Source of the DNA: Sedimenticola sp.
Lineage (GTDB): Bacteria > Pseudomonadota > Gammaproteobacteria > Chromatiales > Chromatiaceae
Direction: 5' to 3'
Length of the DNA stretch: 64,000 bases
Assembly (NCBI GenBank): GCA_027024025.1
Contig: JALVTT010000151.1
Coordinates: 1 to 64,000, forward strand
The position numbers were made by a program, and so were the translations under genes. Below are positions 9,665-42,066 of this stretch, piece after piece (position 1 is the stretch's first letter; every line of letters starts with the position of its first letter). The notes below the pieces were generated by a model, which was not told where the DNA came from, did no database searches, and was given only the letters and a program-made list of their open reading frames with translations.

Positions 9665-11479
9665 TCAGCGGATCTTGACTTCGGTCAGCTCCTCGCCGTC
9701 TTCGCTCATCACGTGCGTGGAGCAGGCGAGACAGGGATCGAAGCTGTGCAGGCTGCGCAGGATCTCCACCGGCTCGTCCGGGCGCTCCATCGGCGTATTC
9801 ATCAGGCAGGCCTCGAAGGCGCCGATGTTGCCGGCCGGATCACGTGGCGAACCGTTCCAGGTTGTCGGCACCACGCACTGGTAGTTCTCGATGCGCCCGT
9901 CCTTGATATGGATCCAGTGCCCCAGCGCGCCGCGCGGCGCGGCCACGGTACCCACCCCCTTGGCCTCCTTCGGCCAGGTCGAGGGATCCCACTTCTCCAT
10001 GTTGGCGGTGGCCGTGTCGCCGGCCTTGATGTTGGCGATCAGCTCGTTCCAGTCGTCCACCATCATGTCGGCGCAGTACTCGGCCTCGAGCGCACGCGCC
10101 AGGGTGCGACCGATGGTGGAGTTCAGCGCGGTCTTGGCGTCCAGATTGGTGCCCGCCAGGTGGTTGAAGGCGGCCAGGCTGGTATCCACCTGGTTGCGCA
10201 CGTACTCGACGCCATGCGCATAGGCCAGGGTGTAACGCGACAACGGGCCGACCTCGACCGCATGGCCACGCCAGCGCGGGGCCTTGATCCAGGAATACTT
10301 GGCGCTCTCGTCGAGCTCCTGGATGTTGGTACGGGTGCCCTTGGTGTTCGACCCCAGCTCGTAGTTCGGCTCGGTGATGCCGTCCCAGGGGTGCAGGCCG
10401 ACCGACTCGTCGGGGTAGCTGTACCAGGAATGCGCCACGAACTCCTGCACCTGCTCGGGGTCGCGCGGATCGATCTCGTGGATCTCGTTCCAGTTGCCAT
10501 TGAGGATGACGCCGCCGGGCAGCTGATCGGTGGACTTGTCGTAGTTGACCTTGGGATAGGCTCCGTAGTCCATGACGTTGATCGCACCGTGACCGCCGCC
10601 ATAGAGCCAGTCCTTGTAGAAGCTGGCGATGGCGATGACATCGGGCACATAGACGTTCTTGCAGAAGTCCACCATCTCCTGGATGCGCGCACGCACGAAG
10701 TTGAGCCGCTCCATGTTCAGCGGCGCACCGGCCGACAGGTCGCCGTCCATGTTGATCGCGCAGGGCACGCCGCCCACCAGGTAGTTGGGGTGCGGGTTCT
10801 TGCCGCCGAACACGGTGTGGACCTTGACGAACTCCTTCTGCAGATCCAGCGCCTCGAGGTAATGGGCCACCGCCATCAGGTCGGCCTCGGGCGGCAGCTT
10901 GTAGGCCGGGTTGTCCCAGTAACCGTTCTTGAAGGGCCCCAGCTGACCCGACTCGATGAACTTGCGGATACGGGTCTGGATGTCGCGGAAGTAACCGGGA
11001 CTGGAGAGCGGGTGGCGCGGCGAGACGCTCTGCTGCAATGCCGAGGTCGCCTTGGGGTCGGCCTTCAGGGCGTTGACCGGGTTCACCCAGTCGAGCGCAT
11101 GCAGGTGGTAGAAGTGCACCACGTGGTCGTGGACCTGAAGGGTCTTGGCCATCATCTCGCGGATCAGGTGCGCATTCTTGGGGATACGGATGCCCAGTGC
11201 ATCCTCCACCGTGCGCACCGAGGTGAGTGCGTGACAGCCGGTGCACACGCCGCAGATACGCTCCACGAAGGCCCAGGCATCGCGCGGGTCACGCCCCTTG
11301 AGGATCACTTCGAGGCCGCGCCACATGGTGCCGGTGGACACCGCGTTGCGGATCACGTTGTTCTCGTCCACGTTAACCTCGCAACGCATGTGACCCTCGA
11401 TACGGGTCACCGGATCGACGACCACGCGCCGACCGCTGCTGTCCAGGGTATAACCGTTGGGTGTCTTGATGACGCTCAT
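9665..11479 (-). CDS. hupL: Uptake [NiFe]-hydrogenase large subunit
   Basis: [14 protein letters not shown] and [26 protein letters not shown] (Ni ligands plus C-terminal processing extension). Confidence 0.97.
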
Positions 11480-11483
11480 TGAA

Positions 11484-12551
11484 TCACTCCTCTCCCTTGT
11501 TGGCGGCACGCTTGACGGCGCTCACGGCGGCATGGGCGGCAACCGCACCACCGACCACGGCGGCCACGCCTCCGCCCACGGCATCGGCGTTGCTCTCGAT
11601 ACCGAACTGGTTGATATCGGTCAGGCGGGCATACCAGGAACCCTTGTCCCAGAAGCCATCCTCGGAACAGCCGATGCAGCCGTGACCGGCCTGGATGGGG
11701 AACGAGGTGCCCTCGTTCCAGCGGATGGTGGAACAGGCATTGTAGGTGGTCGGCCCCTTGCAGCCCATCTTGTACAGGCAGTAGCCCTTGCGCGCGCCCT
11801 CGTCGTCCCAGGACTCGACGAACTGGCCGGCATCGAAATGCGGCCGACGGTAGCACTTGTCGTGGATGCGCTGGCTGTAGAACATCTTGGGCCGCCCCTG
11901 GCGATCCAGTTCCGGCATGCGCTCGAAGGTGAGCATGTAGGTGACCACCGCGGTCATCACCTCGGCGATGGGCGGACAGCCCGGCACCTTGATGATCGGC
12001 TTGTCGGTGATGACCTTGTGCACTGGCGTGGCCCGCGTCGGATTCGGCCTGGCCGCCTGCACGCAGCCATAGGACGCGCACGAACCCCAGGAGATGATGG
12101 CCTTGCAGTGCTCGGTCGCGTAACGCAGCTGCTCGACGAAGGGCTTGCCGCCGATGATGCAATACATGCCGTCTTCGTTGAGCGGCGGATTGCCCTCGAC
12201 CGCCACGATATAGTTGCCCTTGTACTTCTCGACGATCTCCTCGACGATGGCCTCGGCCTGGTGCCCGGACGCCGCCATGATGGTGTCGTCGTAGTCCAGC
12301 GAGACCATGGACAGGATCACGTCCTTGGCCAGGGGGTGTGCCGAGCGGATGAACGACTCGGAACAGCAGGTACACTCAAGGCCGTGCAACCACAGGATGG
12401 GAATGCGCGGCTTGTTCTCCATCGCATGGGCAATCTTGCCGGCGAACTCCGGCCCCAGCCCCAGTGCCGCAGCGGTGAGACTGCAGAACTTGAGGAAACT
12501 GCGCCGGGATATCCCTTGCCGCCGCATCACTTCGTAAAAGGTCTCGGTCAT
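11484..12551 (-). CDS. hupS: Uptake [NiFe]-hydrogenase small subunit with Tat signal
   Basis: [25 protein letters not shown] Tat motif; [24 protein letters not shown] FeS-cluster motifs. Confidence 0.97.
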
Positions 12552-12938: not shown

Positions 12939-13643
12939 ATGAACGAACCGACAGACAAGCAGGTACTGATTCTCGGCATCGGCAACATCCTCTGGGCCGA
13001 CGAGGGTTTCGGCGTACGCGCGGTCGAGACGCTCAACCAGCGCTACACCTTCGATGACAACGTCACCCTGATGGATGGCGGGACCCAGGGCATCTATCTG
13101 GTGCAGCACGTGCAGGCAGCCGATTATCTGGTAGTGTTCGACGCCATCGACTACGGTCTGCCCCCGGGCACCCTGAAATGCATCGAGGACGAGGCCGTCC
13201 CGCAATTCATAGGTGCCAAGAAGATGAGCCTGCACCAGACCGGCTTCCAGGAGGTCCTGGCGATGGCGCAACTGCTCGGCGACTATCCCGAGCGCCTGCT
13301 GCTGGTCGGCGTGCAGCCCGAGAAACTCGAAGACTACGGCGGCAGCCTGCGCCCCGTGGTGCGCGCGCAGATCGACCCGGCGATCGATGCCGCACTGGAC
13401 TGGCTGGGCGCGCTCGGCATCGCCGCCCGCCCGCGTGCCACCCCGCTGCCCGAGGATGCGCGCCTGACCCCACCACAGATTGATCTCGAACCCTACGAGC
13501 GCGACCGTCCACCGGAAGAGGCCGCGCCACGCCTCGGCGATGCGCGCATCCTCGCGCGCGACGACGTGCGCTTCGATCCCAAACCCGTCGAATTCGACGG
13601 CCCGCGCCTGAGCGTATGCGTAGATCACCGGAGAGACGACTGA
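12939..13643 (+). CDS. hupD: Hydrogenase maturation endopeptidase with C-terminal extension
   Basis: VLILGIGNILWADEGFGVRAVE...DAIDYG...SLHQTGFQEVLA; HyaD/HupD family. Confidence 0.93.
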   Translation: MNEPTDKQVLILGIGNILWADEGFGVRAVETLNQRYTFDDNVTLMDGGTQGIYLVQHVQAADYLVVFDAIDYGLPPGTLKCIEDEAVPQFIGAKKMSLHQTGFQEVLAMAQLLGDYPERLLLVGVQPEKLEDYGGSLRPVVRAQIDPAIDAALDWLGALGIAARPRATPLPEDARLTPPQIDLEPYERDRPPEEAAPRLGDARILARDDVRFDPKPVEFDGPRLSVCVDHRRDD

Positions 13644-13975
13644 TGTGTATCGGCATCCCCATGCAGATCCAGCACAGCGAGAGCCTGCAGGCGACCTGCG
13701 TCCACCAGGGCGAAGTACGCCGGATCGATCTCACCCTGGTCGGCGAGCAACCGCCGGGCACCTGGGTGATGACCTTTCTCGACGCCGCGCGTGAGGTCAT
13801 CGACGAGACCACCGCGCGCCAGAACCTGGCTGCCATCGAGGCGGTCGAACAGGTGATGCGTGGCCAGTCCGCTGACATCGAGGCCCTGTTCGCCGACCTG
13901 ATCGACCGCGAACCCGAACTGCCACCGCATCTCGCCGTGCAAGTGCAACGACAGACCACCGAGGAGAACCCATGA
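13643..13975 (+). CDS. hupF: HypC/HupF-family hydrogenase chaperone
   Basis: MCIGIPMQIQ N-terminus with essential Cys2; longer than the second copy at 25988. Confidence 0.88.
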   Translation: MCIGIPMQIQHSESLQATCVHQGEVRRIDLTLVGEQPPGTWVMTFLDAAREVIDETTARQNLAAIEAVEQVMRGQSADIEALFADLIDREPELPPHLAVQVQRQTTEENP

Positions 13976-14412
13976 ACCCGGCCACTGCCCACGCCGAATC
14001 TGCCACACCGCCGCTGATCCAGCGCCTGATCGACGACTACGGTTACCCGGTGCTCGGCGCCGCCGACCTCGACGCCCTGCCCGCAGACGACCGAGTGAAC
14101 GTGCTGTTCTTCACCGAAGATCCGAAGAAATACCCCGAGACCCTGGATGTCGCGGTGGTATTGCCCGAACTGATCGCCCACTACGGCGAGCGCCTGCACC
14201 CGGCCATCGTGTCCCGTGCCGACGAAAAGGCTCTGCAGGAACGCCACGGCTTCAGCCAGTGGCCGACCCTGGTGTTCCTGCGCGGTCGCGACTACCTGGG
14301 GGCGATCAGCCGCATCCAGGACTGGCACGTCTACCTGGAACGCATCGACGAACTGCTAACCGCCGAGCCAACCCGCCCGCCGGGGGTGGGCGTGCCCGTG
14401 GTCGGCGCCTGA
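13972..14412 (+). CDS. hupG: HupG/HyaE-family thioredoxin-like hydrogenase expression protein
   Basis: VNVLFFTEDPKKYPETLDVAVVLPELI...QWPTLVFLRGRDYLGAISRIQDW; position in hup operon. Confidence 0.88.
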   Translation: MNPATAHAESATPPLIQRLIDDYGYPVLGAADLDALPADDRVNVLFFTEDPKKYPETLDVAVVLPELIAHYGERLHPAIVSRADEKALQERHGFSQWPTLVFLRGRDYLGAISRIQDWHVYLERIDELLTAEPTRPPGVGVPVVGA

Positions 14413-14434
14413 CGAACGCCCGGAGGAGGAACCC

Positions 14435-15289
14435 ATGAAACCCATCGACATCCCTGTGGTCGGCATCGGCCCCGGCAGCCAACCCGACGACGGCGACCAG
14501 TTCGAATTCATGGACATGCCTTGTGGCATGTTCCGGCACGACCTGGTCAGCCTGCCCGAGCCCGAAGACATCGCTGACCTGCCGGCGGCACGCCAACTGC
14601 TGGCTGACCTAAAGGCGGCGATCGGCCGATACCGCTGCGGCGACCCGGCGATCCGCCTCGACATGAACACCCTGGGAGCACACGAACGTGACCTGCTCGC
14701 CCAGATCCTCGGCGAAGGCGAGGTCAGCATCACCGTCGAGCAGGACGGGCACCGCATCCAGATCCAGGAGTCGGTGCTCACCGGTGTATGGCGGGTGCAG
14801 AGCCTGGATGCCGACGACCGCCTGCTCGACGACGCTCTGGAGATCGCCGACATCCCTGCGGCAGTGCGCAGCTCCCGCATGGCGGACGACCGCCACCTCA
14901 ACACCTCACTGGAAGGCCTGCCCGGGGGCGTGCAGAACGCGCCCGCCCTGCTGGTGGAGATCAGCGACCAACTCGCCTCGCACCAGCCCGGCGACCCGGC
15001 GCATATCATCAACCTCACTCTGCTGCCGCTCACCAATGAAGACCTGGTTCTGCTCGGAGAACGTCTGGGCGTGGGGCCGGTGACCATCCTCTCGCGCGGC
15101 TACGGCAACTGCCGTATCGGCAGCACCGCCTTCCCCGGCCTGTGGTGGATCAAGTACTACAACTCGCAGGATGCGCTGATCCTCAACACTATCGAGATCG
15201 TGGACATCCCCTCGGTAGCGCTGGCCGCGCCCGAAGACATCGAGGCCTCGGCCGAGCGCGTGAACGAAATCGCGGAGCTCTACGCATGA
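14435..15289 (+). CDS. hupH: HupH/HyaF-family hydrogenase expression/formation protein
   Basis: GILTGVWRVQ-like repeat (SVLTGVWRVQSLD, STAFPGLWWIKYYNSQDALILNTIEIVDIP); hup operon position. Confidence 0.9.
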   Translation: MKPIDIPVVGIGPGSQPDDGDQFEFMDMPCGMFRHDLVSLPEPEDIADLPAARQLLADLKAAIGRYRCGDPAIRLDMNTLGAHERDLLAQILGEGEVSITVEQDGHRIQIQESVLTGVWRVQSLDADDRLLDDALEIADIPAAVRSSRMADDRHLNTSLEGLPGGVQNAPALLVEISDQLASHQPGDPAHIINLTLLPLTNEDLVLLGERLGVGPVTILSRGYGNCRIGSTAFPGLWWIKYYNSQDALILNTIEIVDIPSVALAAPEDIEASAERVNEIAELYA

Positions 15290-15507
15290 AAACCTTCGAA
15301 GGCTCCTACATGGGCGACGATACGCGCATCCCCGACGATGCGCGCATGGAGTGCAAGGTCTGCTGGTACGTCTACGACCCCGCCGAGGGGGACGACTACT
15401 GGCAGATCCCACCCGGCACCCCCTTCAGCCAGCTCCCCGATCACTGGCGCTGCCCGCAATGCGAGGGTGCCCATGAGCAATTCATGGTGATCCTGGAGGA
15501 CCGATGA
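15286..15507 (+). CDS. hupI: Rubredoxin
   Basis: MECKVCWYVYDPAEGDDYWQIPPGTPFSQLPDHWRCPQCEG: two CxxC motifs. Confidence 0.95.
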   Translation: MKTFEGSYMGDDTRIPDDARMECKVCWYVYDPAEGDDYWQIPPGTPFSQLPDHWRCPQCEGAHEQFMVILEDR

Positions 15508-16022
15508 ACGGCATGGCCGACACCCTGGCGGGCGGACTGGAGCGGGTGTTCACGCAGATCCAGGCACAACGCATGGACGGTGTGCCGGTGATCAACCCCC
15601 GGCTGCGGGTGCAGGCCGTCGGCTTCCACCCGCGCGACGGGGCCTTTCTCGGCGTGCTCATCACCCCCTGGTTCATGAACCTGGTGCTGTTGCCCGAAGA
15701 GGGCGACGGCTGGCAGGAGCTGCCGGTGGGCAGCACCGTGCGCCACCAGTTTCCTGCTGGCGAATACGACTTCATCGTCGGGCACGAGGAAGGGCTGGGG
15801 CGCTACCAGAGCTGCTCGCTGTTCTCCCCCATGTTCGAGTTCGCCGACATGGAGGCTGCGGTGGCCACCGCCGAAGCGGCGCTCGAGGCCCTGCTCGTCC
15901 CCGCCGAGGAGGAACCCGAACCAGCCACCCCCACACCGGTCGAGGCCGTGGTGGAACGCCGCCTGGAGCGCCCGGTGAGCCGCCGCGAGATGCTGCGCGG
16001 CCTGTTCGGCGGCGGAGAATGA
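15504..16022 (+). CDS. hupJ: HupJ/HybE-family hydrogenase assembly chaperone
   Basis: VFTQIQAQRMDGVPVINPRLRVQAVGF...LGVLITPWFMNLVLLP typical HupJ/HybE. Confidence 0.92.
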   Translation: MNGMADTLAGGLERVFTQIQAQRMDGVPVINPRLRVQAVGFHPRDGAFLGVLITPWFMNLVLLPEEGDGWQELPVGSTVRHQFPAGEYDFIVGHEEGLGRYQSCSLFSPMFEFADMEAAVATAEAALEALLVPAEEEPEPATPTPVEAVVERRLERPVSRREMLRGLFGGGE

Positions 16023-16026
16023 GAAA

Positions 16027-17121
16027 ATGAGCATGGCGCTGGACGATCAACGCCTGCACTGCCAGCTGCACTGGCACGGGCACCGCGTCACCGGCGTGAC
16101 CCTCCGCTCCGGGCGCCTGCTGGAGGTTTCCCGACTGTTCACGGGCCGCACCCCGGAAGAGGTGCTGACCCTGCTGCCACGGCTCTATACCCTCTGCGGC
16201 CAGGCACACACTGCGACCGCCCGGTTGGCGCTGTTCCCCGACAGCCCCCCGGCGACCGAGACACAGCGCCGCGTACAGATCGAAAACCTGCGCGAGCACC
16301 TGCTCTATCTGTTCGTGCACTGGCCCGAGGCCAGTGAGCAGACCCCGGCGGCTGGCGAGCTGGCCCCGGCGCTCGCCCTGGCCAGCCGCCAGCTCGCCAC
16401 ACCACACGAAACCGACACCCGGCGCGAACTGCTCACCTGGATCGAGACGAACGTGCTCGACATGCCGGCCGGCGACTTTCTGGCGCTCGATGACACCGGA
16501 CTACGCACCTGGGCGCAGCAGGGAAGCACCCTGCCCGCCCGCCTGCTGCACGACACCCATGCGCTGCCCGTCGTTTCCGAACCCACAGTCCAGCCATTGC
16601 GCCGCGACGACCTGGAGGCAGTAGCCCGGGCGCTCGCAGCAACCGATGCCACACGCTTTGTCGCCTGCCCCGCGCTGGATGACGGCTGCCGCCATACCGG
16701 CCCAGCCGCCGAGGACCCACTAGCCGGGACCGACACCCCGCTGCCTCCGCTGGGACGACATCTGGCCGCACGCCTGCGCGCCCTGGCGCGGCTGTGCCGC
16801 AGCCTGGCGTCCCCCGAAGCCGTGGACGACAGCCTGTTCCGCACCGCGGGACTGGCCTGCGCCGAGACCTCGCGCGGCCTGCTGGTGCATCATGCAAGGG
16901 TGACCGAGGGCCGGGTGAGCGACTATCGCATCCTCGCGCCGACCGAGTGGAATTTCCATCCGCGCGGCCTGGCCGCGCGCTGGCTGGCACGCATCGAAAC
17001 CGACGATCGCACGACCCTGTACCGGCTGGCAGCCCGCATCGTGCGCGCGGTCGATCCCTGCGTGGCCTTCGACATCGGCATCGACGAACCCGACAAGCTG
17101 CCGGAGGTCGCCCATGCATGA
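16027..17121 (+). CDS. hupK: HupK, hydrogenase large-subunit-like expression protein
   Basis: C-terminal GRVSDYRILAPTEWNFHPRG...AVDPCVAFDIG resembles large subunit but lacks full CxxC pairs; operon position. Confidence 0.88.
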   Translation: MSMALDDQRLHCQLHWHGHRVTGVTLRSGRLLEVSRLFTGRTPEEVLTLLPRLYTLCGQAHTATARLALFPDSPPATETQRRVQIENLREHLLYLFVHWPEASEQTPAAGELAPALALASRQLATPHETDTRRELLTWIETNVLDMPAGDFLALDDTGLRTWAQQGSTLPARLLHDTHALPVVSEPTVQPLRRDDLEAVARALAATDATRFVACPALDDGCRHTGPAAEDPLAGTDTPLPPLGRHLAARLRALARLCRSLASPEAVDDSLFRTAGLACAETSRGLLVHHARVTEGRVSDYRILAPTEWNFHPRGLAARWLARIETDDRTTLYRLAARIVRAVDPCVAFDIGIDEPDKLPEVAHA

Positions 17122-17455
17122 AATGTCACTGTGTGAGGGCATCGTGCAGGTCCTCGAGGACCAGGCCGAGACCCAGCGCTATACCCGGGTCAAGCAGGTC
17201 TGGCTGGAGATCGGCGCGCTGGCCGGCGTCGAGATCGAGGCCATGCGCTTCAGCTTCGACGTGGTCACCTGCGGTACTCTGGCCGAACACGCGCAATTGC
17301 ACATCATCGAGACACCGGGACAGGGCTGGTGCCTGCCCTGTGCTAAGACCATCAGCATCTCCCAACGCCACGACCCCTGCCCCGACTGCGGCAGCTACCA
17401 AATTCAGGTCACAGGCGGCGACGAGATGCGCATCAAGGAACTGGAGGTGGAATAA
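17114..17455 (+). CDS. hypA: Hydrogenase nickel incorporation protein HypA
   Basis: [18 protein letters not shown]...CPDCG zinc motifs. Confidence 0.95.
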
Positions 17456-17457
17456 CC

Positions 17458-18330
17458 ATGTGTACCGTCTGCGGCTGCGGCGACGGCGAAACCCGGATCG
17501 AGGGCGAAGAGCATCGCCACGACGAAGGTCACGACCACACCCATCAACATTCCCATGCCCACGACCACTCTCACGATCACGGGCACGACCACCATCACTA
17601 CGGGCAGGGGCCGGCGCGCGCGCACGCGCCCGGGCTCAGCCAGGCTCGCATGGTGCAGATCGAGCAGGACATCCTGTCCAAGAACGACCGCTACGCCGCG
17701 GCCAACCGCGGCTGGCTGGCCACGCGCGGGGTATTGGCGCTCAACCTGGTCTCCAGTCCCGGCGCGGGCAAGACCAGCCTGCTCACCCGCACCCTCGAGG
17801 ACCTGCGGGAAGAGATCCCCATGAGCGTGATCGAGGGCGACCAGGAAACCACCAACGACGCCGAGCGCATCCGCGCCACCGGCGCGCGCGCCATCCAGAT
17901 CAACACCGGCAAGGGCTGTCACCTGGATGCCCACCAGGTGGGGCATGCGCTCGAGCACCTCGACCCCGAGGTCGGCTCGGTGCTGTTCATCGAGAACGTC
18001 GGCAACCTGGTCTGTCCTGCCGCCTTCGACCTGGGCGAGGCGCACAAGGTCGCCATCCTCTCGGTCACCGAGGGCGAGGACAAGCCGATCAAGTACCCCG
18101 ACATGTTCGCCGCCGCCGGGCTGCTGCTGCTCAACAAGATCGACCTGCTCCCGCATCTCGACTTCGACGTGGCGCGCTGCATCGAGTACGCACGGCGGAT
18201 CAACCCCGGCATCCAGGTCCTCCAGGTCTCGGCACGCAGCGGAGAAGGCCTGAACGACTGGTACCGCTGGCTGCGCCTGCAACGCGAGGCGCGACAGATC
18301 GGCCATGCGCCGACGGGAAGCGTGGCCTGA
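17458..18330 (+). CDS. hypB: Hydrogenase nickel incorporation GTPase HypB, His-rich
   Basis: [11 protein letters not shown]-terminal Ni motif; [39 protein letters not shown]-loop; NKIDLLP. Confidence 0.97.
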
Positions 18331-18331
18331 G

Positions 18332-19830
<1,499 letters not shown>

Positions 19831-19831
<1 letters not shown>

Positions 19832-21204
19832 TGCACCGCAGCGAACCCGTCAATGACAGCAGAACCTTCACCGAGCTGGCCGACCAGGCCCTGTCCTCGG
19901 GCAGTCTGAGCGAAGAGGCCTGGGTCGAGGTCATCCGCCGCATGGACACCATCTATGCCGACCTAGTGCATTACCAGGTCGAACTCGAGCACAAGAACGA
20001 GGAGCTCGAGGAGGCCCAGCGCTTCATCGACTCGGTACTCTCGGCCATGTCCGACGTGCTGGTGGTGGCCGACATCAACGGCCGCATCCAGCGCATCAAC
20101 CAGGCCATGCTGGACATGACCGGAAAGCGCGCAGAGGAACTGCTCGAGCGGGACATCACCATCCTGTTCACCGGCGACTCGGTGCATATGGTGCGCGAGT
20201 TTCCGCAGAGGGTGCGCGACCATGCCATCACCGACTGCGAGGCCAAGATGCTCGGCGCCGACGGCGAGGCGGTACCCATCGCCATCAACTGCAGCCCACG
20301 ATACGACAGCAACGGCGTACTCTCCGGCATGGTCATCACCGGTCGCCAGCTCGGCGAGCTGCGCCGCGCCTACCGCGAGTTGCAGGACGCCCACCAGCGC
20401 CTCAAGGATGCCCAGCGCCAACTGGTGCAATCCGAGAAGATGGCTTCACTCGGCCGCCTGGTGGCCGGGGTCGCGCACGAGCTGAACAACCCCATCAGTT
20501 TCGTCTTCGGCAACATGCACGCACTCAAGCGCTACGAAGACCGCCTGCGGCGCTATCTCGATACCGTGCACCAGGGCCGGCCCGCCGCCGAGGTCGAAGC
20601 ACTGCGCCGCCAGCTCAAGATCGACCGCCTGCTCAAGGACATCGCCCCCCTAATCGACGGCTCGCTCGAGGGCGCCGAGCGGGTCAGCACCATCGTGCAG
20701 AACCTGCGCCGCTTCGCCACGCCCAACCACCAGGGACAGAACTGGTTCGACCTGAGCCGGCTGGTCGAGAACGCGGTCACCTGGGTAGCCAAGACCACGC
20801 GCACCACGCCCGAACTGAACTTCGACATGCCCGACGAACTGCCGGTGCACGGCAGCGAGGGCCATGTGCACCAGATCCTGATCAACCTGGTGCAGAATGC
20901 CATCGACGCCATGGAGGACCTGCCCCAGCCGCGGCTCGACATCCGCGTGGTCCGGCAGCCGAACCGCGTCGAGGTACACATCCGCGACTACGGTCCCGGC
21001 ATTCCCGAGGAACACCTGCTGCACATCTTCGATCCCTTCTTCACCACCAAGGAGATCGGCAAGGGCACCGGGCTGGGGCTGTACATCAGCTACGGCCTGG
21101 CCACCGAGCAGTGCGGCGGTGACCTGAGCGCAACCAACCATCCCGAGGGCGGCGCCGAGTTCGTGCTCTCGCTGCCGCTGGAACACGGAGGCACGAGCAC
21201 ATGA
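19831..21204 (+). CDS. hupT: PAS-domain sensor histidine kinase (HupT/HoxJ-like)
   Basis: PAS region; H-box MASLGRLVAGVAHELNNPISFVFGNMHAL; ATPase domain NLVQNAIDAM, GPGIPEEHLLHIFDPFFTTKEIGKGTGLGL. Confidence 0.9.
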
Positions 21205-22208
21205 GCGAGCACCTCACCCTGCTCTGGCTCCAGTCCGGCGGTTGCGGCGGTTGCAGCATGTCGCTGCTCGACGCCGAGCACCCCGATCTCTACTGTGCAC
21301 TCGAACTGTCGGGCATCGACCTGCTCTGGCACCCCTCCTTGAGCGAGGCCAGTGCCGAGGAGTTTCTCGACCTGCTCGGACGCATCTCGCGCGGCGAACA
21401 ACGCCTCGACATCCTTTGCCTCGAGGGCTCGGTAATGCAGGGCCCGGACGGCACCGGCCGCTTCCACCTGCTCGCCGGCAGCGGCCGCCCCATGCGCGAC
21501 TGGCTTCGTGAGCTGGCCGGGCTGGCGCGTCACGTGATCGCCATCGGCAGTTGCGCGGCCTTCGGCGGCATCACCGCTGCCGGCGACAACCCCGGCGAGG
21601 CCTGTGGCCTGCAATACACGGGCGAACAACCCGGCGGCCTGCTTGGCGAGGACTGGCAGGCTGCCGGCGGCCTGCCGGTGATCAACATCGCCGGCTGCCC
21701 CACCCATCCCGGCTGGGTACTCGACTGCCTGGCGCAGTTGGCGCTGGGTGAACTGGATGAGGACGCACTCGACGAATACCACCGCCCGCGCAACTACACC
21801 GATCACCTAGTCCATCACGGCTGCCCGCGCAATGAGTACTACGAATTCAAGGCCAGCGCCGAGAGCCCCGGCGAACAGGGCTGCATGATGGAGCACATGG
21901 GCTGTCTGGGCACCCAGGCGCGCGCCGATTGCAATATCCGCCCCTGGAACGGCAGCGGCTCCTGCCTCAAGGGCGGCTACGCCTGCATCAACTGTACCGC
22001 ACCGGCCTTCGAGACGCCCAATCATCCCTTCCAGGAGACACCCAAGCTGGGGGGGATTCCGATCGGCCTGCCCAGCGACATGCCCAAGGCCTGGTTCGTG
22101 GCCCTGGCCTCGCTGGCCAAGGCCGCCACCCCCGAACGTCTGCGCCGCAATGCGGTGGCCGAACACATCGAGGTGCCGCCCACTGGCGGCCGGCGGAGGC
22201 GGCCATGA
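21201..22208 (+). CDS. hupU: H2-sensing (regulatory) hydrogenase small subunit
   Basis: LLWLQSGGCGGCSMSLL without Tat signal; GSCAAFGG; HHGCPRNEYYEFKASA; HupU/HoxB type. Confidence 0.93.
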   Translation: MSEHLTLLWLQSGGCGGCSMSLLDAEHPDLYCALELSGIDLLWHPSLSEASAEEFLDLLGRISRGEQRLDILCLEGSVMQGPDGTGRFHLLAGSGRPMRDWLRELAGLARHVIAIGSCAAFGGITAAGDNPGEACGLQYTGEQPGGLLGEDWQAAGGLPVINIAGCPTHPGWVLDCLAQLALGELDEDALDEYHRPRNYTDHLVHHGCPRNEYYEFKASAESPGEQGCMMEHMGCLGTQARADCNIRPWNGSGSCLKGGYACINCTAPAFETPNHPFQETPKLGGIPIGLPSDMPKAWFVALASLAKAATPERLRRNAVAEHIEVPPTGGRRRRP

Positions 22209-23650
22209 GCCGGCGGCTGTACGGTCCCTTCAACCGTGTCGAGGGCGATCTCGAGGTGCAGGTCGAGATCGAAGACGGTCGCATCAAGGCCGCCTGGGTC
22301 AACTCGCCCCTGTTCCGCGGCTTCGAACAGATCCTGCACGGCCGTGATCCACGCGATGCCCTGGTCTACACCCCACGCATCTGCGGTATCTGCTCGGTCT
22401 CGCAGTCGGTGGCCGCAGCCTCCGCGCTGCGCGAGGCCATGGGGCTCGAGATGCCCGACAACGGCCGCCTGGCGACCAATCTGGTGCTCACCTGCGAGAA
22501 CCTGGCCGATCACCTGACCCATTTCTACCTGTTCTTCATGCCCGATTTCGCGCGCGAGGCCTACGCCGATCACCCCTGGCACGCGGCCATTGCGGAACGC
22601 TTCCGCGCGCAGACCGGCCGCTGCGCGCGTGAGGTACTGCCTGCGCGTGCAGCCTTCCTGCACCTGACCGGCATCCTCGCCGGCAAGTGGCCGCACAGCC
22701 TGAGCCTCCAGCCCGGCGGCTCGACCCGCCCGGTCGAGCCCCAGGAGCGCATCCGCCTGCGCCACATCGTCGGCCAGTTCCGGCAGTTTCTCGAGACCAC
22801 CCTGTTCGGCGACGCACTCGAATCGGTCGCGGCACTGGACTCCCCCGACGCCCTGGACGACTGGGCCGAACGTCACGCCGACAGCGACTTCGGGCGCTTC
22901 CTCCAGGTCGCCGGAGTGCTGGATCTCGCTGCCATCGGCCGCGGCCCCGACCGCTTCCTTAGCTTCGGCGCCTACGCGCTGGCCGATGGCCACCTGTTCG
23001 CACGCGGCACCTGGGCAGATGGCGAACGCGGCGCGCTCGATCCCTCGGCCATCCGCGAGGACGTGAGCTGCAGCTGGATAAGGTCGCAGAACGGTCCGCG
23101 CCATCCACGCGAGGGCACCACCCTGCCGGCCGCCGACAAGCCCGGGGCCTACAGCTGGTGCAAGGCACCGCGTCTGGATGGCCAGGTGATGGAGGCCGGC
23201 GCGCTCGCCCGCCAACTGATCGACGACCATCCGCTGATCCGCGCCCTGGTCGCCCGGAGCGGTGGCAACGTGCGCAACCGCGTGATCGCGCGCCTGCTGG
23301 AGCTGGCGCGCCTAGTGCCTGTGATGGAAGACTGGGTGCTGGCGCTGCGCCCGCGCGAACCCTTCTGCCTCGACGCCCCGATGCCCGACGAGGCCGAGGG
23401 TGCCGGGCTGGTGGAGGCCGCGCGCGGCAGCCTGGGCCACTGGCTGCGGATACGCAACGGGCGCATCCTCAACTACCAGATCATCGCACCAACCACCTGG
23501 AACTTCTCCCCACGCGACGCCGAAGGTACCCCCGGCGCGCTGGAGCAGGCGCTCGTCGGGCTGGCCGTCGGACCAGACGGGCGCGACGCGGTGGCCATCC
23601 AGCACGTGGTGCGCTCCTTCGACCCCTGCATGGTCTGCACGGTGCACTGA
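22205..23650 (+). CDS. hupV: H2-sensing (regulatory) hydrogenase large subunit
   Basis: RICGICSVSQSVAAA and terminal SFDPCMVCTVH-stop (no cleavable C-terminal peptide); HupV/HoxC type. Confidence 0.93.
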   Translation: MSRRLYGPFNRVEGDLEVQVEIEDGRIKAAWVNSPLFRGFEQILHGRDPRDALVYTPRICGICSVSQSVAAASALREAMGLEMPDNGRLATNLVLTCENLADHLTHFYLFFMPDFAREAYADHPWHAAIAERFRAQTGRCAREVLPARAAFLHLTGILAGKWPHSLSLQPGGSTRPVEPQERIRLRHIVGQFRQFLETTLFGDALESVAALDSPDALDDWAERHADSDFGRFLQVAGVLDLAAIGRGPDRFLSFGAYALADGHLFARGTWADGERGALDPSAIREDVSCSWIRSQNGPRHPREGTTLPAADKPGAYSWCKAPRLDGQVMEAGALARQLIDDHPLIRALVARSGGNVRNRVIARLLELARLVPVMEDWVLALRPREPFCLDAPMPDEAEGAGLVEAARGSLGHWLRIRNGRILNYQIIAPTTWNFSPRDAEGTPGALEQALVGLAVGPDGRDAVAIQHVVRSFDPCMVCTVH

Positions 23651-23651
23651 G

Positions 23652-25982
23652 ATGAACGCCCTGAGCCGCCTCGCCACCGACCAACCGACCACCTGGCGCA
23701 TCCGTGTGCGTGGCATCGTGCAGGGCGTGGGCTTCCGCCCGGCGGTGTGGCGGCTGGCGCGCACCCTGGGCCTGTCCGGCGAGGTCCTCAACGACGGCGA
23801 CGGCGTGGCGATCCGCCTGCATGGCCTGGCCGGCGAGATCGACGACTTCATCACCCGGCTTCGCCGCGATCCACCCCCACTGGCACGCATCGACACCGTC
23901 GAGATCGAAGGCACCGAGCCGGGCGAACCGCCGTCGGGCTTCCACATCCTGCCCAGCGAGGGTGGCGTCATCCGCACCCTGGTCTCGCCCGACGTGGCCA
24001 CCTGCCCCGACTGTCTGGCCGAGGTACTCTCCGATACCGACCGCCGCGCCGGCCACCCCTTCGCCAACTGCACCCACTGCGGGCCCCGCCTGTCCATCCT
24101 GCGCGAGCTGCCCTACGACCGCGCACACACCAGCATGGCCGGGTTCCCGATGTGTCCGCAGTGCGCCGCCGAATATGCCGACCCGGCCGACCGACGCTTC
24201 CACGCCCAGCCCATCGCCTGCCCCGATTGCGGCCCGCGCCTGTGGCTGAGCGACCGTACCGGGCAGGCACAATCCTGCGACGACCCCATCGCCGAGGCGG
24301 CACGTCGGCTGCGCGAAGGACAGATCCTGGCGATCAAGGGCGTCGGCGGCTTTCACCTGGTCGCCGACGCCACCCGCGGCGACACCCTAGAGACACTGCG
24401 CCAGCGCAAGCGGCGGCCGCGCAAGCCGCTGGCGCTGATGGCGCGCGACCTCGAGGTGATCACACGCTATCGCACCCTCTCCACCGCCGAGCAGCGCGCC
24501 CTGGAAGACCGCGCCGCCCCCATCGTGCTGCTCGAGCACCCCGGCCCCGAGCCACTGCCCGAGGCCGTCGCTCCCGGTAGCGGCGCACTGGGCTTCATGC
24601 TGCCCCATTCGCCACTGCATCACCTGCTGGCGCGGTATTTCGACACCCCACTGGTCTTCACCTCGGGTAACGCCTCGGGCCGCCCCCAGTGCACCGACAA
24701 CGAGGAAGCACTCACCAGACTGGGCGAGATCGCCGACGCCTTCCTGCTGCATGACCGCGCCATCGTCAACCGCGTGGACGACTCGGTGCTGCGGCTGATC
24801 GATGGAGCCCCCGCTCCCCTGCGTCGTGCGCGTGGCTTCGCGCCTGCGCCCCAGCCCCTGCCGCCGGGGCTGGAGGACGCTCCGCCGCTGCTCGCCCTCG
24901 GCGGGGAGCTGAAGAACACCTTCTGCCTGCTGCGCGAGGGGCAGGCCATCCTTTCGCAGCACATCGGAGACCTGGAGCAGGCCGACACCTGGCGCGACTG
25001 GCAGGAACAGATCGAACGCTTTACCACGCTGTTCGCACACTGTCCCGAAGCCATCGCCATCGACGGCCATCCCGGCTACCGCAGTAGTGCCTGGGGCCGC
25101 GACCGGGCCACGCGCGAAGGCCTGCCGCTGATCACCGTGCAACACCATCACGCCCACCTGGCCGCCTGCCTGGCCGAGCACGGCGTGCCGGCGGATGCCG
25201 GTCCCTCGCTGGGTATCGTGCTCGACGGCATCGGCCACGGCGAGGACGGCAGCGGCTGGGGCGGTGAACTGCTGGTTGGCGACTACCAGAGCTTCCGCCA
25301 GATCGCGCGGCTGCGCCCGGCGGCCCTGCCCGGCGGCGCGCAGGCCATGCGCGAACCCTGGCGCAACCTGGCCGCGCGCCTGCTGTCCGAAGCGCCAGGG
25401 ATGCTCGAACGCACCGAGGTGCTGGCCGACCGCCCGCTCGAGATCCTGCGGCGCATGATCGAACGCGGCGTCAACAGTCCACCGGTCAGCTCTGCCGGAC
25501 GCCTGTTCGACGCCGTGGCCGCACTGATCGGGCTGGCCCCGACGCACCAGTCCTTCGAGGGCGAGGCGGCCATGGCACTGGAACAGGCCGCGCACGCCGC
25601 CGCAGACGGCCACCCCTGCCGCCTGGAAGTGCGCGAATGCGACGGTCTGGTCGAGCTAGACCCCGCGCCGCTGTGGCCGGCACTGATCGAGGGTATCGAG
25701 CAGGGCGTGCCGGCCGGCCGACTGGCGCGCGGCTTTCACGACGCGCTGGCCGAAGCCTTCGCCCGGGTCGCCATCGCCGCGGCGCAGGAACGGCGGATCG
25801 CGCGCGTGGCACTCAGCGGCGGCGTGCTGCAGAACCGGCTGCTGGCCGAGCAGCTCTGCGAGCGCCTGCGTGCGGCAGATCTGCAAGTACTCATTCACCG
25901 GCAGGTACCTGCCAACGATGGGGGACTGGCGCTCGGTCAGGCCTGTATCGCGGCGGCGCGCCTGCGCGAGCAACGGAGGTAG
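23652..25982 (+). CDS. hypF: Carbamoyltransferase HypF
   Basis: Acylphosphatase RIRVRGIVQGVGFRPAVWRLAR; CPDCLAEVL/CTHCGPR zinc fingers; VQHHHAHLAACLAEH carbamoyltransferase motif. Confidence 0.97.
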   Translation: MNALSRLATDQPTTWRIRVRGIVQGVGFRPAVWRLARTLGLSGEVLNDGDGVAIRLHGLAGEIDDFITRLRRDPPPLARIDTVEIEGTEPGEPPSGFHILPSEGGVIRTLVSPDVATCPDCLAEVLSDTDRRAGHPFANCTHCGPRLSILRELPYDRAHTSMAGFPMCPQCAAEYADPADRRFHAQPIACPDCGPRLWLSDRTGQAQSCDDPIAEAARRLREGQILAIKGVGGFHLVADATRGDTLETLRQRKRRPRKPLALMARDLEVITRYRTLSTAEQRALEDRAAPIVLLEHPGPEPLPEAVAPGSGALGFMLPHSPLHHLLARYFDTPLVFTSGNASGRPQCTDNEEALTRLGEIADAFLLHDRAIVNRVDDSVLRLIDGAPAPLRRARGFAPAPQPLPPGLEDAPPLLALGGELKNTFCLLREGQAILSQHIGDLEQADTWRDWQEQIERFTTLFAHCPEAIAIDGHPGYRSSAWGRDRATREGLPLITVQHHHAHLAACLAEHGVPADAGPSLGIVLDGIGHGEDGSGWGGELLVGDYQSFRQIARLRPAALPGGAQAMREPWRNLAARLLSEAPGMLERTEVLADRPLEILRRMIERGVNSPPVSSAGRLFDAVAALIGLAPTHQSFEGEAAMALEQAAHAAADGHPCRLEVRECDGLVELDPAPLWPALIEGIEQGVPAGRLARGFHDALAEAFARVAIAAAQERRIARVALSGGVLQNRLLAEQLCERLRAADLQVLIHRQVPANDGGLALGQACIAAARLREQRR

Positions 25983-25987: not shown

Positions 25988-26272
25988 ATGTGTCTGGGCA
26001 TTCCGGGACAGATCGTGGAGATCGTCGATCACGAAAACCTGCTGGCGCGGGTGGACGTGGCCGGCGTGCGCCGCGAGATCAACATCGCCTGCATCGTCGA
26101 CGATGCGCACCCGCCCGAGGCCTGCGTCGGCGACTGGGTGCTGATGCATGTCGGCTTCGCCATGAGCCGCATCGACGAGGCCGAGGCACGCAAGACACTC
26201 GCGCTGCTCGACCAGCTCGGCGAGGTGGAGGCCGAACTCGCGACCATGCGTGCCAGCGAGGCACCGACATGA
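25988..26272 (+). CDS. hypC: Hydrogenase maturation chaperone HypC
   Basis: MCLGIPGQIVEIVDHENLLARVDVAGVRREINIACI; GDWVLMHVGFAMSRIDE. Confidence 0.96.
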   Translation: MCLGIPGQIVEIVDHENLLARVDVAGVRREINIACIVDDAHPPEACVGDWVLMHVGFAMSRIDEAEARKTLALLDQLGEVEAELATMRASEAPT

Positions 26273-26949
26273 ACGATACCCTCGACGCCCTCTACCCCTT
26301 TCTCGCCGGCGGAGCCAAGGACCCGCAGGCCGAGCAGGAGGCGCTGTGCGAGTCGGTGCGCCGCAAGGCCACGCACAGCGTGGAGGTCAAGCAGGAATTC
26401 TTCGCGCACAACACCGAGGCGTTGATCGCCTGTGCCCGCGACCTGGCCGCAAGCTACCGCGCAGGCGGGCGCCTGTTCACCATGGGCAACGGTGGCTCGA
26501 GCTGCGATGCGGCCCATCTGGCGGTGGAATTCCAGCACCCGGTGACCACCGGGCGGCCCGCGCTGCCGGCGATGAACCTGGTCATGGACGCCGCCATGTG
26601 CTCGGCGGTGGCCAATGACGTGGGCGTGGAGCATGTCTTCGTGCGCCAACTCGAGGCCCATGCCCGGGCCGGCGACGCCCTCGCAGGCTTCTCCACCAGC
26701 GGCAATTCCGCCAACCTGATGCGCGCCTTCGCCCGTGCCCGCGAACTGGGCCTGTTGACCATTGGCTTCGCCGGAGGCGACGGCGGCGAGATGCACGCCT
26801 CGGGCCTGCTGGACCACTGCCTGGTGGTAGAGACCGACTCCATCCACCGTGTACAGGAAGTGCACGTGGCCTGTTACCACATCCTCTGGGATCTGACACA
26901 CACACTGCTCGCCGACAGCCGCGGGCATGCGGGAGGAAAGACATCATGA
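26269..26949 (+). CDS. SIS-domain protein, GmhA-like (sedoheptulose-7-phosphate isomerase family)
   Basis: GNGGSSCDAAHLAVEF, STSGNSANLMRAFARARELG, VQEVHVACYHILWDL match GmhA motifs; ATGA overlaps with hypC and hypD. Confidence 0.85.
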   Translation: MNDTLDALYPFLAGGAKDPQAEQEALCESVRRKATHSVEVKQEFFAHNTEALIACARDLAASYRAGGRLFTMGNGGSSCDAAHLAVEFQHPVTTGRPALPAMNLVMDAAMCSAVANDVGVEHVFVRQLEAHARAGDALAGFSTSGNSANLMRAFARARELGLLTIGFAGGDGGEMHASGLLDHCLVVETDSIHRVQEVHVACYHILWDLTHTLLADSRGHAGGKTS

Positions 26950-28085
26950 AATTCGTCGACGAGTTCCGCGACCCGAACAAGGCACGCGCCCTGATCCGCG
27001 AAATCGAGACCCTGCTGCCGCAAATTCCGCGCGCAGACGAGCGACCGCTGCAGATCATGGAATTCTGCGGGGGACACACCCACACCATCTTCCGCTACGG
27101 CCTGGAGCAGATGCTGCCCGGGGCCATCGAGCTGGTGCACGGCCCCGGTTGCCCGGTGTGCGTGCTGCCGATGGGGCGGGTGGACGACTGCGTGGCGCTG
27201 GCCGAGCGTCCCGAGGTGATCTTCACCACCTTCGGCGATGCCATGCGCGTGCCCGGCTCGAAGAAGAGCCTGTTGCAGGCCAAGGCCGAGGGCGCGGACG
27301 TGCGCATGGTCTATTCGCCGCTGGACGCACTGGCGCTGGCACGCGCCAACCCCGATCGCGAGGTGATCTTCTTCGCACTCGGTTTCGAGACCACCATGCC
27401 CAGCACCGCGCTCACCGTGCTGGCGGCCGAGCGCGAGGGCATCGACAACTTCTCACTGTTCTGCAACCACATCACCACGGTGCCGACCATCAAGGCCATC
27501 CTCGATTCGCCGGACATGCAGATCGACGCCTTCCTCGCACCGGGACACGTGAGCATGGTGGTCGGTGAGGCGCCCTTCCGCTTCGTTGCCGAAGACTACG
27601 GCAAGCCCATCGTCATCACCGGCTTCGAGCCACTCGACATCCTGCAATCGCTGTGGATGGTGATCCGCCAGCTCGCCGAGGGCCGCTGCGAGGTGGAGAA
27701 CCAGTACCGGCGCATCGTGCCGCCCGAGGGCAACAGCGCCGGACTGGAAGCGGTGGCCAAGGTCTTCGAGCTGCGCGAGTTCTTCGAGTGGCGCGGCCTT
27801 GGCTCGATCGACCATTCGGGCGTGCGCATGCGCGAGGAATACGCGCGCTTCGACGCCGAACGCAAGTTCCCCGTGCCCAGCCTGAAGATCGCCGACCCGC
27901 GCTCCTGCCAGTGCGGCGAGGTGCTCAAGGGCGTGATCCGTCCCTGGGAGTGCAAGGTCTACGGTCGTCAGTGCACCCCGCAGACGCCGATGGGCGCGCT
28001 CATGGTCTCCTCCGAGGGAGCCTGCGCCGCCTACTACCAGCACGGCCGCCTGGCCGTCGAGGCACAGCGAGGGCAGGCAGGATGA
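26946..28085 (+). CDS. hypD: Hydrogenase formation protein HypD
   Basis: MEFCGGHTHTIFRYGLEQMLP, GPGCPVCVLP, GFETTMP, FCNHITTVP motifs. Confidence 0.97.
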   Translation: MKFVDEFRDPNKARALIREIETLLPQIPRADERPLQIMEFCGGHTHTIFRYGLEQMLPGAIELVHGPGCPVCVLPMGRVDDCVALAERPEVIFTTFGDAMRVPGSKKSLLQAKAEGADVRMVYSPLDALALARANPDREVIFFALGFETTMPSTALTVLAAEREGIDNFSLFCNHITTVPTIKAILDSPDMQIDAFLAPGHVSMVVGEAPFRFVAEDYGKPIVITGFEPLDILQSLWMVIRQLAEGRCEVENQYRRIVPPEGNSAGLEAVAKVFELREFFEWRGLGSIDHSGVRMREEYARFDAERKFPVPSLKIADPRSCQCGEVLKGVIRPWECKVYGRQCTPQTPMGALMVSSEGACAAYYQHGRLAVEAQRGQAG

Positions 28086-29104
28086 ACGGAACCATCACCC
28101 TGGCGCACGGCGCCGGCGGGCGGGCGATGCGTGAGCTGATCGACACGCTGTTCGTCGGCGGCTATGGCAACGACCTGCTGGCCGCACTCGAGGACCAGGC
28201 ACGATTGGAACTCGATGCCCTGGTCGCACACGGCGACCGCCTGGCCTTCACCACCGACAGCTACGTCGTCGATCCGCTGTTCTTCCCCGGCGGCGACATC
28301 GGCAAGCTGGCGATCACCGGCACGGTCAACGACCTGGCCGTCGGCGGCGCCCGCCCACTGTTCCTCTCCTGCGGGATGATCCTCGAGGAGGGTCTGCCGC
28401 TGGACACCCTGCGCCGGGTGGTCGCCTCCATGAAGGCTACCGCCGACGAGGCCGGGGTGCAGATCGTCACCGGCGACACCAAGATCGTGCACCGGGGCGC
28501 GGCCGACAAGCTGTTCATCAACACCGCCGGCATCGGGGTCATCCCCGCCGGGGTGGACATCCGCGCGGCGCGTGCCCGGCCGGGCGACCGCATCCTGATC
28601 AACGGCTGGGTCGGCGATCACGGTGCGGCCATCGTCGATGCCCGGGGCGAGCTGGCGCTGGACAACCCGGTGGAGACCGACTGCCAGCCGCTCAGTGGCC
28701 TGGTGGAGGCCATGCTCGCCGCCTGTCCCGACATTCACTGCCTGCGCGACGCCACCCGCGGGGGAATCGCCGGGGTACTCAACGAGTTCGCCACCGCCAG
28801 CGGCTGTGCGCTGCACATCGAGGAGACGGCCGTGCCGATCCGCGATACGGTGCGCGGGGTATGCGAGATCCTCGGCCTGGACCCGCTGTACCTGGCCAAC
28901 GAGGGCAAGCTGGTGGCCATCGTTGCACCCGAGGACGCCGAGCCCGTGCTCGAGGCCATGCGCGCCCACCCGGCCGGGCGCGACGCCGTGATCATCGGCG
29001 AGGTGACCGAGTCGCCCACCGGCAGCGTGATCCTGCACACCGGCTTCGGTGGCGAACGCATCGTCGATCTGCTGGTTGGCGAACAACTCCCAAGAATCTG
29101 CTGA
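28082..29104 (+). CDS. hypE: Hydrogenase expression/formation protein HypE
   Basis: AHGAGGRAMRELI...TTDSYVVDPLFFPGGDIGKLAITGTVNDLAVGGARP; C-terminal PRIC cysteine. Confidence 0.97.
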   Translation: MNGTITLAHGAGGRAMRELIDTLFVGGYGNDLLAALEDQARLELDALVAHGDRLAFTTDSYVVDPLFFPGGDIGKLAITGTVNDLAVGGARPLFLSCGMILEEGLPLDTLRRVVASMKATADEAGVQIVTGDTKIVHRGAADKLFINTAGIGVIPAGVDIRAARARPGDRILINGWVGDHGAAIVDARGELALDNPVETDCQPLSGLVEAMLAACPDIHCLRDATRGGIAGVLNEFATASGCALHIEETAVPIRDTVRGVCEILGLDPLYLANEGKLVAIVAPEDAEPVLEAMRAHPAGRDAVIIGEVTESPTGSVILHTGFGGERIVDLLVGEQLPRIC

Positions 29105-29113: not shown

Positions 29114-29818
29114 ATGACCATCATGAGCATCCTGTTGATGAGCCTGCTGATCGGCATACGCCACGCCCTGGAGAGCGATCACCTGGCCGCCGTGGCCTCG
29201 CTGGCCACCCGTTCGCCTTCGCTGCGCCAGACCGTGCGCCTGGGCGCCACCTGGGGCCTGGGGCATACCCTCACCCTGTTCCTCTTCGGCTCGGTGGTGC
29301 TGTGGATGGACACGGTGATGCCGGAGCGGCTGGCGCACTGGCTGGAGTTCGCCGTCGGCCTGATGCTGGTGGGACTTGGCATCGACGTGCTGCACCGCCT
29401 GTGGCGCGAGCGGGTACACTTCCACGTGCATCGCCACAACGACGGTACCGTGCACTTCCATGCTCATTCCCACCAGGGACAGCGCGCCCACGGCCCGGAG
29501 GCACACCGGCACGAACACCCGAAGGGCTTCCCGCTGCGCGCCCTGCTGGTCGGCCTGGTGCACGGCATGGCCGGCTCGGCGGCGCTGATCCTGCTCACCC
29601 TGCAGACCCTGCACGACCCCTGGCTGGGCATGCTCTACATGCTGGTGTTCGGTATCGGCTCCATCCTCGGCATGGCCGCCGTCTCGGCGGTCATCGCCTG
29701 GCCGCTGAAGGCCACCGGTCGGCGCCTGACCTGGGCACACAATGGGTTGCAGGCCACCATCGGCCTGTTCACCCTGGGCAGCGGGCTGTGGATCGCGCTG
29801 GAGAGTGCGCCGATATAG
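29114..29818 (+). CDS. UreH/NiCoT-like nickel (cobalt) transporter with His-rich loop
   Basis: LIGIRHALESDHLAAVASL (NiCoT-like HxxxxDH signature), loop HFHVHRHNDGTVHFHAHSHQGQRAHGPEAHRHEH, hyp-operon position. Confidence 0.8.
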   Translation: MTIMSILLMSLLIGIRHALESDHLAAVASLATRSPSLRQTVRLGATWGLGHTLTLFLFGSVVLWMDTVMPERLAHWLEFAVGLMLVGLGIDVLHRLWRERVHFHVHRHNDGTVHFHAHSHQGQRAHGPEAHRHEHPKGFPLRALLVGLVHGMAGSAALILLTLQTLHDPWLGMLYMLVFGIGSILGMAAVSAVIAWPLKATGRRLTWAHNGLQATIGLFTLGSGLWIALESAPI

Positions 29819-37486: not shown

Positions 37487-37562
37487 GCCCCGTTTGGACA
37501 AGCCCCGGGGGTTCAAGCAAAATGCGCGGGTCATACCGGCCACGAGGTTGCAACACAGGCAG

Positions 37563-38546
37563 ATGCTGCTGATTTCCGGCTCGATCATCCTCGGCTTCGC
37601 GCTCCTGATCTGGGGCGCGGACCGCTTCGTCATGGGCGCCGCCGCGCTGGCGCGCAACCTCGGCGTCTCGCCCCTGCTGATCGGCCTGACCGTGGTGGGT
37701 TTCGGCACCTCCGCGCCAGAGGTGCTGGTCTCGGCCATGGCCGCGGCGGACGGCAATCCCGGGCTGGCGCTGGGCAACGCGGTGGGCTCCAATATCGCCA
37801 ATATCGGCCTGATCCTCGGGGTCAGCGCCCTGGTCGCCCCGCTGGCGGTGCATTCCGACGTGCTGCGGCGCGAATACCCCATCCTCATGGGGGTCTGCGT
37901 GGCGGTCTATCTGATGCTGCTGGACGGCCACCTGGGCCGCCTCGACGGCGCCCTGATGCTGACCGGACTGGCGGCCGTGCTGTGGGGCATGGTGCGCATC
38001 GGCCGCCGCCGCGCCCTGCACGATCCCCTGGAAGAGGAATTCGAGAAAGAGATTCCCGGCAATCTCAGCACCCTGTCCGCCAGCCTGTGGTTCATCGCCG
38101 GCCTGGCCCTGCTGCTGGTGGCCTCGCGCATGCTGGTCTGGGGCGCGGTCTCGGTGGCGACCCTGTTCGGGGTCAGCGACCTGGTGATCGGCCTGACCAT
38201 CGTCGCGGTCGGCACCAGCCTGCCGGAACTGGCGGCGAGCGTGGTGAGCACCCTCAAGGGCGAGGACGACATCGCGGTGGGCAATGTGATCGGCTCCAAC
38301 ATCTACAACATGCTCGCGGTGCTCAGCCTGCCGGGCCTGATCGCCCCGGGGCCGGTCGAGGCCACGGTGCTCAGCCGCGACATGCCGATCATGCTGGGCC
38401 TGACCCTGGCCCTGCTGCTGATGGGCTGGAAGCGCGGCGGCAACGGCCGCATCAACCGGGTCGAGGGCGCCATCCTGACCGCCTGCTTCGTGGGTTACCA
38501 GACCTGGCTGTACTTCGCGAGCCAGGCCCAACCGGTGGGGAGCTGA
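37563..38546 (+). CDS. Calcium/sodium antiporter (YrbG family)
   Basis: Two GxxTxxAxxTSxPE-like repeats: VVGFGTSAPEVLVS and VAVGTSLPELAAS. Confidence 0.93.
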   Translation: MLLISGSIILGFALLIWGADRFVMGAAALARNLGVSPLLIGLTVVGFGTSAPEVLVSAMAAADGNPGLALGNAVGSNIANIGLILGVSALVAPLAVHSDVLRREYPILMGVCVAVYLMLLDGHLGRLDGALMLTGLAAVLWGMVRIGRRRALHDPLEEEFEKEIPGNLSTLSASLWFIAGLALLLVASRMLVWGAVSVATLFGVSDLVIGLTIVAVGTSLPELAASVVSTLKGEDDIAVGNVIGSNIYNMLAVLSLPGLIAPGPVEATVLSRDMPIMLGLTLALLLMGWKRGGNGRINRVEGAILTACFVGYQTWLYFASQAQPVGS

Positions 38547-38547
38547 G

Positions 38548-39525: not shown

Positions 39526-39536
39526 GAGGACAAGCG

Positions 39537-40061: not shown

Positions 40062-40064
40062 GCC

Positions 40065-40634: not shown

Positions 40635-40709
40635 CAGGAAAACGGAACCGTCCCGCCAAGAACCCCAGGGCCGCGTCATCGAACGACGCAAGCCATTGAC
40701 AGCCCAGGT

Positions 40710-40801: not shown

Positions 40802-40815
40802 CCGCGGCGTTTTGC

Positions 40816-41337: not shown

Positions 41338-41340
41338 GCC

Positions 41341-42066
<726 letters not shown>

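Follow-up and report, generated by a model that had tools for sequence, protein, structure and literature searches.

A GmhA-like SIS protein encoded between hypC and hypD is a probable accessory of [NiFe]-hydrogenase maturation

Several ancillary proteins have been described in the maturation of O2-tolerant [NiFe]-hydrogenases. HypX (HoxX) provides CO, which is made from formyl-THF, and HupK/HoxV and HoxL/HupF act together with HypC and HypD; no SIS protein appears among the ancillary proteins in the 2025 review that covers them (PMC12134894). A SIS gene linked to hyp genes has nevertheless been noticed. GmhA is listed among the maturation proteins of Acidithiobacillus ferrooxidans, where cells growing on H2 contained more of it, and of other operon products, under anaerobic than under aerobic conditions (PMC7735108), and the gene appears as gmhA MSMEG_2706 in Mycobacterium smegmatis (PMC5445863). 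A 2025 neighbourhood survey found 68 genes near [NiFe]-hydrogenases that group as one SIS-domain cluster (PMC12727194), and an unexplained association of GmhA with HypD and HypE was reported in Clostridium (PMC3231954). We found no functional study of a hyp-linked gmhA/SIS gene in the open-access literature searched, which gave only tables and mentions, and the database label is that of a generic sugar-phosphate isomerase. The gene is noticed but unstudied, and the word "undescribed" in our first-pass annotation is to be corrected accordingly, given PMC7735108, PMC5445863, and PMC12727194.

The gene studied here lies in a 64,000-nucleotide stretch of Sedimenticola sp. DNA (the window), within a large hydrogenase cluster (Table 1). 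The predicted protein was assigned to SIS_2 by Pfam at 66.6 bits and the products of the flanking genes to HypC and HypD. The initial observation that the gene overlaps both neighbors at ATGA junctions was borne out, as the open reading frame and both overlaps were found in the sequence: ATGA at 26269-26272 is common to the hypC stop and the SIS start, and ATGA at 26946-26949 is common to the SIS stop and the hypD start. The SIS protein would probably be synthesized in coordination with HypC and HypD. The extra-Cys motif in the hydrogenase small subunit is a mark of O2-tolerant hydrogenases, and the host cluster is, judged from its sequence, that of an O2-tolerant group-1d hydrogenase.

Table 1. 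Hydrogenase-related genes in the window, with the basis of assignment where given
Feature	Position	Strand	Basis
Group-1d hydrogenase large subunit	9668..11479	-	74-77% to C. necator HoxG
Group-1d hydrogenase small subunit	11490..12551	-	83% to C. necator HoxK; extra-Cys motif ECTCCSE
HoxM-like maturation protease	12972..13562	+	
Ancillary HupG/HupH/HupI/HupJ/HupK (HoxO, Q, R, T, V-like) genes	13972..17121	+	
hypA	17114..17455	+	
hypB	17458..18330	+	
HoxA/HupR-like response regulator	18305..19831	+	
HoxJ/HupT-like histidine kinase	19831..21204	+	
HoxB/HupU-like H2-sensor small subunit (group 2b)	21201..22208	+	63% to C. necator HoxB
HoxC/HupV-like H2-sensor large subunit (group 2b)	22205..23650	+	
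hypF (carbamoyltransferase)	23580..25982 (start position approximate)	+	
hypC (HypC/HupF chaperone)	25988..26272	+	Pfam HypC
Hyp-linked SIS protein (GmhA-like, 226 aa), studied gene	26269..26949	+	Pfam SIS_2 (66.6 bits)
hypD	26946..28085	+	Pfam HypD
hypE	28082..29104	+	
Nickel/cobalt transporter-like protein	29114..29818	+	

We then scanned 85,462 species genomes for homologues and kept the loci of the best 80 relatives. All 80 lie in hyp arrays of the order hypF-hypC-SIS-hypD(-hypE), with hypC directly upstream of the SIS gene in each (79 by a positional rule and the remaining one abutting) and hypD downstream at every locus whose contig extends that far. Because every retrieved relative lies in such an array, the linkage is far beyond chance. 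Judged by their neighbor genes, 34 loci belong to 1d/2b clusters, 23 to 2a clusters, and 10 to 1h clusters, while 13 show hyp genes only. The hosts include Alpha-, Beta-, and Gammaproteobacteria, Acidithiobacillus, a Mariprofundus MAG, and MAGs labelled Acidobacteria or Melainabacteria, so the linkage is not confined to a single lineage. A lineage-specific accident is ruled out by this distribution over many Pseudomonadota and the Acidobacteria- and Melainabacteria-labelled MAGs. At three loci (L055, L063, and L094), additional DNA between the SIS gene and hypD consists of repeat-like inserts or a C-terminal extension with no evident relevance.

The same picture was obtained from other samples. 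In a phylum-wide sample of 299 genomes, only three matches outside the source genome had at least 61% identity, all of them adjoining hypD, and the score fell from 291 to 130 bits after these three. Sixteen plasmid records carry a SIS gene of 60-80% identity, including C. necator pHG1, Afipia pHCG3, and plasmids of Bradyrhizobium, Sphingopyxis, Methylocystis, and Mesorhizobium, and all six plasmid regions inspected are hyp clusters; in Methylocystis, the SIS gene directly follows hypF and hypC is found elsewhere in the same cluster. Distant matches in Mycobacterium, Sulfobacillus, and Thermus are in hyp clusters as well. In a small tree that includes just two HypX-associated rows, HypD proteins from SIS clusters form one clade, which would fit inheritance of hypC-SIS-hypD as a cassette serving different hydrogenases.

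Given the gmhA annotation of this gene in the M. smegmatis and A. ferrooxidans papers, the protein could be an ordinary GmhA for ADP-heptose and LPS synthesis that sits in the hyp operon by chance. The resemblance is real. An AlphaFold model (pLDDT 89.8) has GmhA crystal structures as its closest PDB folds, with a TM-score by target of about 0.9 to GmhA/LpcA (TIGR00441; PDB 2x3y, 2i2w, and 1x92) in the shared SIS_2 fold and about 33-38% identity to solved GmhA structures. The GmhA-like motifs noted at first reading were found in the alignment, where Glu87 and His204 align with Glu65 and His180 of E. coli GmhA. The phosphate loops (GNGGS and STSGNS) and the equivalents of GmhA His61, Glu65, Gln172, His175, and His180 are kept in 92 of 92 hyp-linked sequences, and the GmhA mutants named in PDB titles (D61A, H64Q, and Q175E) correspond to residues that are also kept. 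In contrast, Arg69, Gly68, and Asp169 of GmhA are replaced by Pro, His, and His, respectively, in all 92 sequences, and Ser86 by Ala in 89, whereas Arg or Lys occupies position 69 in 27 of 27 sequences of a GmhA/DiaA comparison set. The protein also scores far below every GmhA equivalog cut-off (143.1 versus 209.45 bits for TIGR00441 and 124.9 versus 276 for NF010546) and below that of DiaA (79.8 versus 352 for NF008138). A conserved N-terminal LYPFL motif, which sets the hyp-linked family apart from GmhA/LpcA, is shared by its members (LYPFI in Mycobacterium and LYPSL in Thermus). In a tree of SIS, GmhA, and DiaA sequences, in which the sequences from Mycobacterium and Thermus sit on long branches, the hyp-linked sequences occupy one side of a branch separate from GmhA and DiaA with an SH-aLRT of 100. 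By these sequence criteria, the hyp-linked SIS proteins form a clade of their own and are not GmhA.

The gene content of the source genome speaks to the same question. In this 99.98% complete genome, no HldE heptose kinase was found, the best match reaching 49.5 bits where the cut-off is 345; therefore, ADP-heptose synthesis is not the job of the SIS gene there, in agreement with the earlier claim that it is not an LPS heptose enzyme. HldE also scored under the cut-off in 18 of 38 SIS-bearing genomes searched. A check for a second, canonical gmhA returned only a DiaA-like SIS gene, split across the ends of two contigs (C15 and C167), that has lost several GmhA active-site residues. The two parts of this split gene (C15/L003 and C167/L002) adjoin YraN-, LpoA-, and BON-type genes, as named by reading of the open reading frames. 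An LPS heptose role is ruled out by the missing HldE together with the pocket changes. With the hyp linkage at 80 of 80 loci added, the ordinary-GmhA explanation is highly improbable, and for the source genome it is already refuted unless some other kind of heptose kinase exists. In a separate part of the window, 37494-42066 reads as a cluster of a Ca2+/Na+ antiporter-like gene, kdsD, kdsC, lptC, lptA, and lptB. Because Kdo and LPS-export genes are present but the heptose kinase was not found, the organism may have a heptose-free LPS core.

Whether the protein is likely to be an enzyme was considered in view of its divergent relatives. The Thermus protein consists of two SIS halves, and the same arrangement was found in Sulfobacillus with a disrupted reading frame, whereas both halves are separate genes on a Mycobacterium intracellulare plasmid (P0002). 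The first half keeps His61, Glu65, an HP motif, and His180 but has lost the phosphate loops, and the second keeps the phosphate loops and RIQE but has lost His61 and Glu65, so that each half in Mycobacterium and Thermus carries only part of the catalytic and phosphate-binding residues. Because these residues are parted between two subunits and not lost, the divided active site argues for catalysis by the SIS protein, as far as can be read from sequence. This observation bears on the idea that the protein is a ligand-sensing regulator, which would bind a sugar phosphate and, with no net catalysis, adjust how active or stable HypC-HypD is in response to carbon or redox status. SIS folds are often sensors, as in transcription regulators, and the SIS regulators MurR and RccR are among the structural neighbors of our model; however, a pure sensor would not need a full catalytic set that does not vary across 92 sequences and persists even when divided over two halves. 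DiaA, a non-enzymatic relative with the same fold and superfamily, has lost the catalytic Glu, whereas the hyp-linked proteins keep the catalytic residues and belong to another clade, the DiaA-like copy of the source genome being a separate gene. We consider the sensor explanation unlikely.

In the hydrogenase cluster of the M. intracellulare plasmid, the gene for the first SIS half also encodes a fused HypC-like domain (L039:9288-9998) and is annotated only as HypC/HybG/HupF. Because a SIS half is joined to a HypC-like domain, this single fusion, from one plasmid, argues for work of the SIS protein at HypC. It would also fit an allosteric subunit, as in the sensor explanation, or a non-catalytic assembly chaperone, a DiaA-like tetrameric platform that would hold HypC-HypD or protect it from O2 in a role comparable to that of HupK/HoxV. 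The fixed position between hypC and hypD and the association with O2-exposed hydrogenases are in line with such a chaperone, and DiaA illustrates that the SIS fold is able to act as a protein-binding platform. However, the catalytic residues are invariant, and HoxV/HupK is already present in many SIS clusters, which makes the chaperone explanation quite improbable. HupK/HoxV and HoxL/HupF resemble the SIS protein as ancillary maturation proteins but are unrelated to it in sequence, and they are not interchangeable with it because both are found in many of the same clusters.

The closest functional comparison is with HypX. Like the SIS gene, HypX is found as an additional gene in the hyp operons that serve O2-tolerant hydrogenases, placed after hypE in SIS-less arrays, but the folds are unrelated, and the formyltransferase and enoyl-CoA hydratase domains of HypX were not found in the SIS protein by Pfam. 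The remark that no HypX/HoxX is present in the window extends to the whole source genome, where C. necator HypX as a query gave no full-length match, and the only hit covered the formyltransferase region, with 25% identity and 33 bits. None of the 80 SIS loci contains HypX, no SIS gene was found at any retrieved HypX locus (most of which have HypX adjoining hypE or hypD), and HypX is missing from 49 of 50 SIS genomes, the remaining one carrying it at a separate locus. HypX was present in 32 of 135 SIS-less hypD genomes, drawn from phylum-wide and Burkholderiales samples, versus 1 of 50 SIS genomes chosen by similarity to the window protein (Fisher p = 1.9e-4, not corrected for ancestry). For 1d-type genomes only, the counts were 14 of 29 without SIS versus 0 of 23 with SIS (p = 6e-5, again not corrected for ancestry). 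One apparent HypX- and SIS-bearing genome (G275) was not counted because this MAG is 9% contaminated and contains two hypD fragments. Where both genes do occur, as in C. necator and some Bradyrhizobium plasmids, they are in separate operons; on pHG1, hyp set 1 has HypX without SIS and hyp set 2 has SIS without HypX. Neither gene was found in 15 of the 29 sampled SIS-less 1d genomes, about half, which rules out a strict "HypX or SIS" rule and indicates that neither gene is strictly required. Given these genomes, the similarity-chosen SIS set, and the uncorrected ancestry, the complementarity between HypX and SIS is suggestive only.

The broad hyp linkage and the missing HldE support the original inference of an accessory maturation role, and the SIS protein very probably serves hydrogenase maturation as a dedicated accessory rather than LPS synthesis. 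On balance, we favor the reading that it is an ancillary maturation enzyme that would work on the HypC-HypD scaffold or beside it and deliver something for Fe(CN)2CO assembly in air, in clusters of O2-exposed hydrogenases of groups 1d, 2a, and 1h. Because the GmhA fold and catalytic set are kept, the enzyme would most likely isomerize or cleave a phosphorylated small metabolite, and because its pocket is reshaped, sedoheptulose-7-phosphate would be an unlikely substrate; activity on a different substrate is probable. The leading candidate for its product would be a HypX-independent source of the CO ligand. The specific proposal of a second route to this ligand or its immediate precursor, starting from a phosphorylated metabolite and delivered to HypC-HypD of air-matured hydrogenases, is plausible though less likely than not, and we know of no SIS enzyme that makes CO, which counts against it. 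A purely aerobic role is not established, because the Acidithiobacillus protein was more abundant in anaerobic than in aerobic growth on H2. The family is a concrete, testable maturation candidate across several phyla. Two organisms amenable to genetics carry it: Cupriavidus necator H16 (pHG1, SIS gene H16_RS31885) and M. smegmatis (MSMEG_2706, linked to the MSMEG_2719-2720 hydrogenase). When O2-tolerant and high-affinity hydrogenases are produced in a heterologous host, the yield would be limited if a maturation factor were missing.

Further small genes were seen in the divergent clusters. A second short HypC-like protein is encoded beside hypC in Thermus (L041:5051-5278) and Sulfobacillus (L040:6993-7226), and the HypC-like domain of the Mycobacterium fusion resembles the Thermus one. 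The tandem SIS gene of Sulfobacillus acidophilus (L040:9455-10600) is unannotated in its record, and its frame is broken near the end by a frameshift or sequencing error. In both clusters the tandem SIS gene is immediately followed by a gene for a small glutaredoxin-like protein (L041:8617-8877 and L040:10613-10846; annotated Uxx-star in Thermus), which lies between hypE and hypF, and in the Mycobacterium cluster a DUF6390 protein (L039:13189-13944) directly follows hypD.
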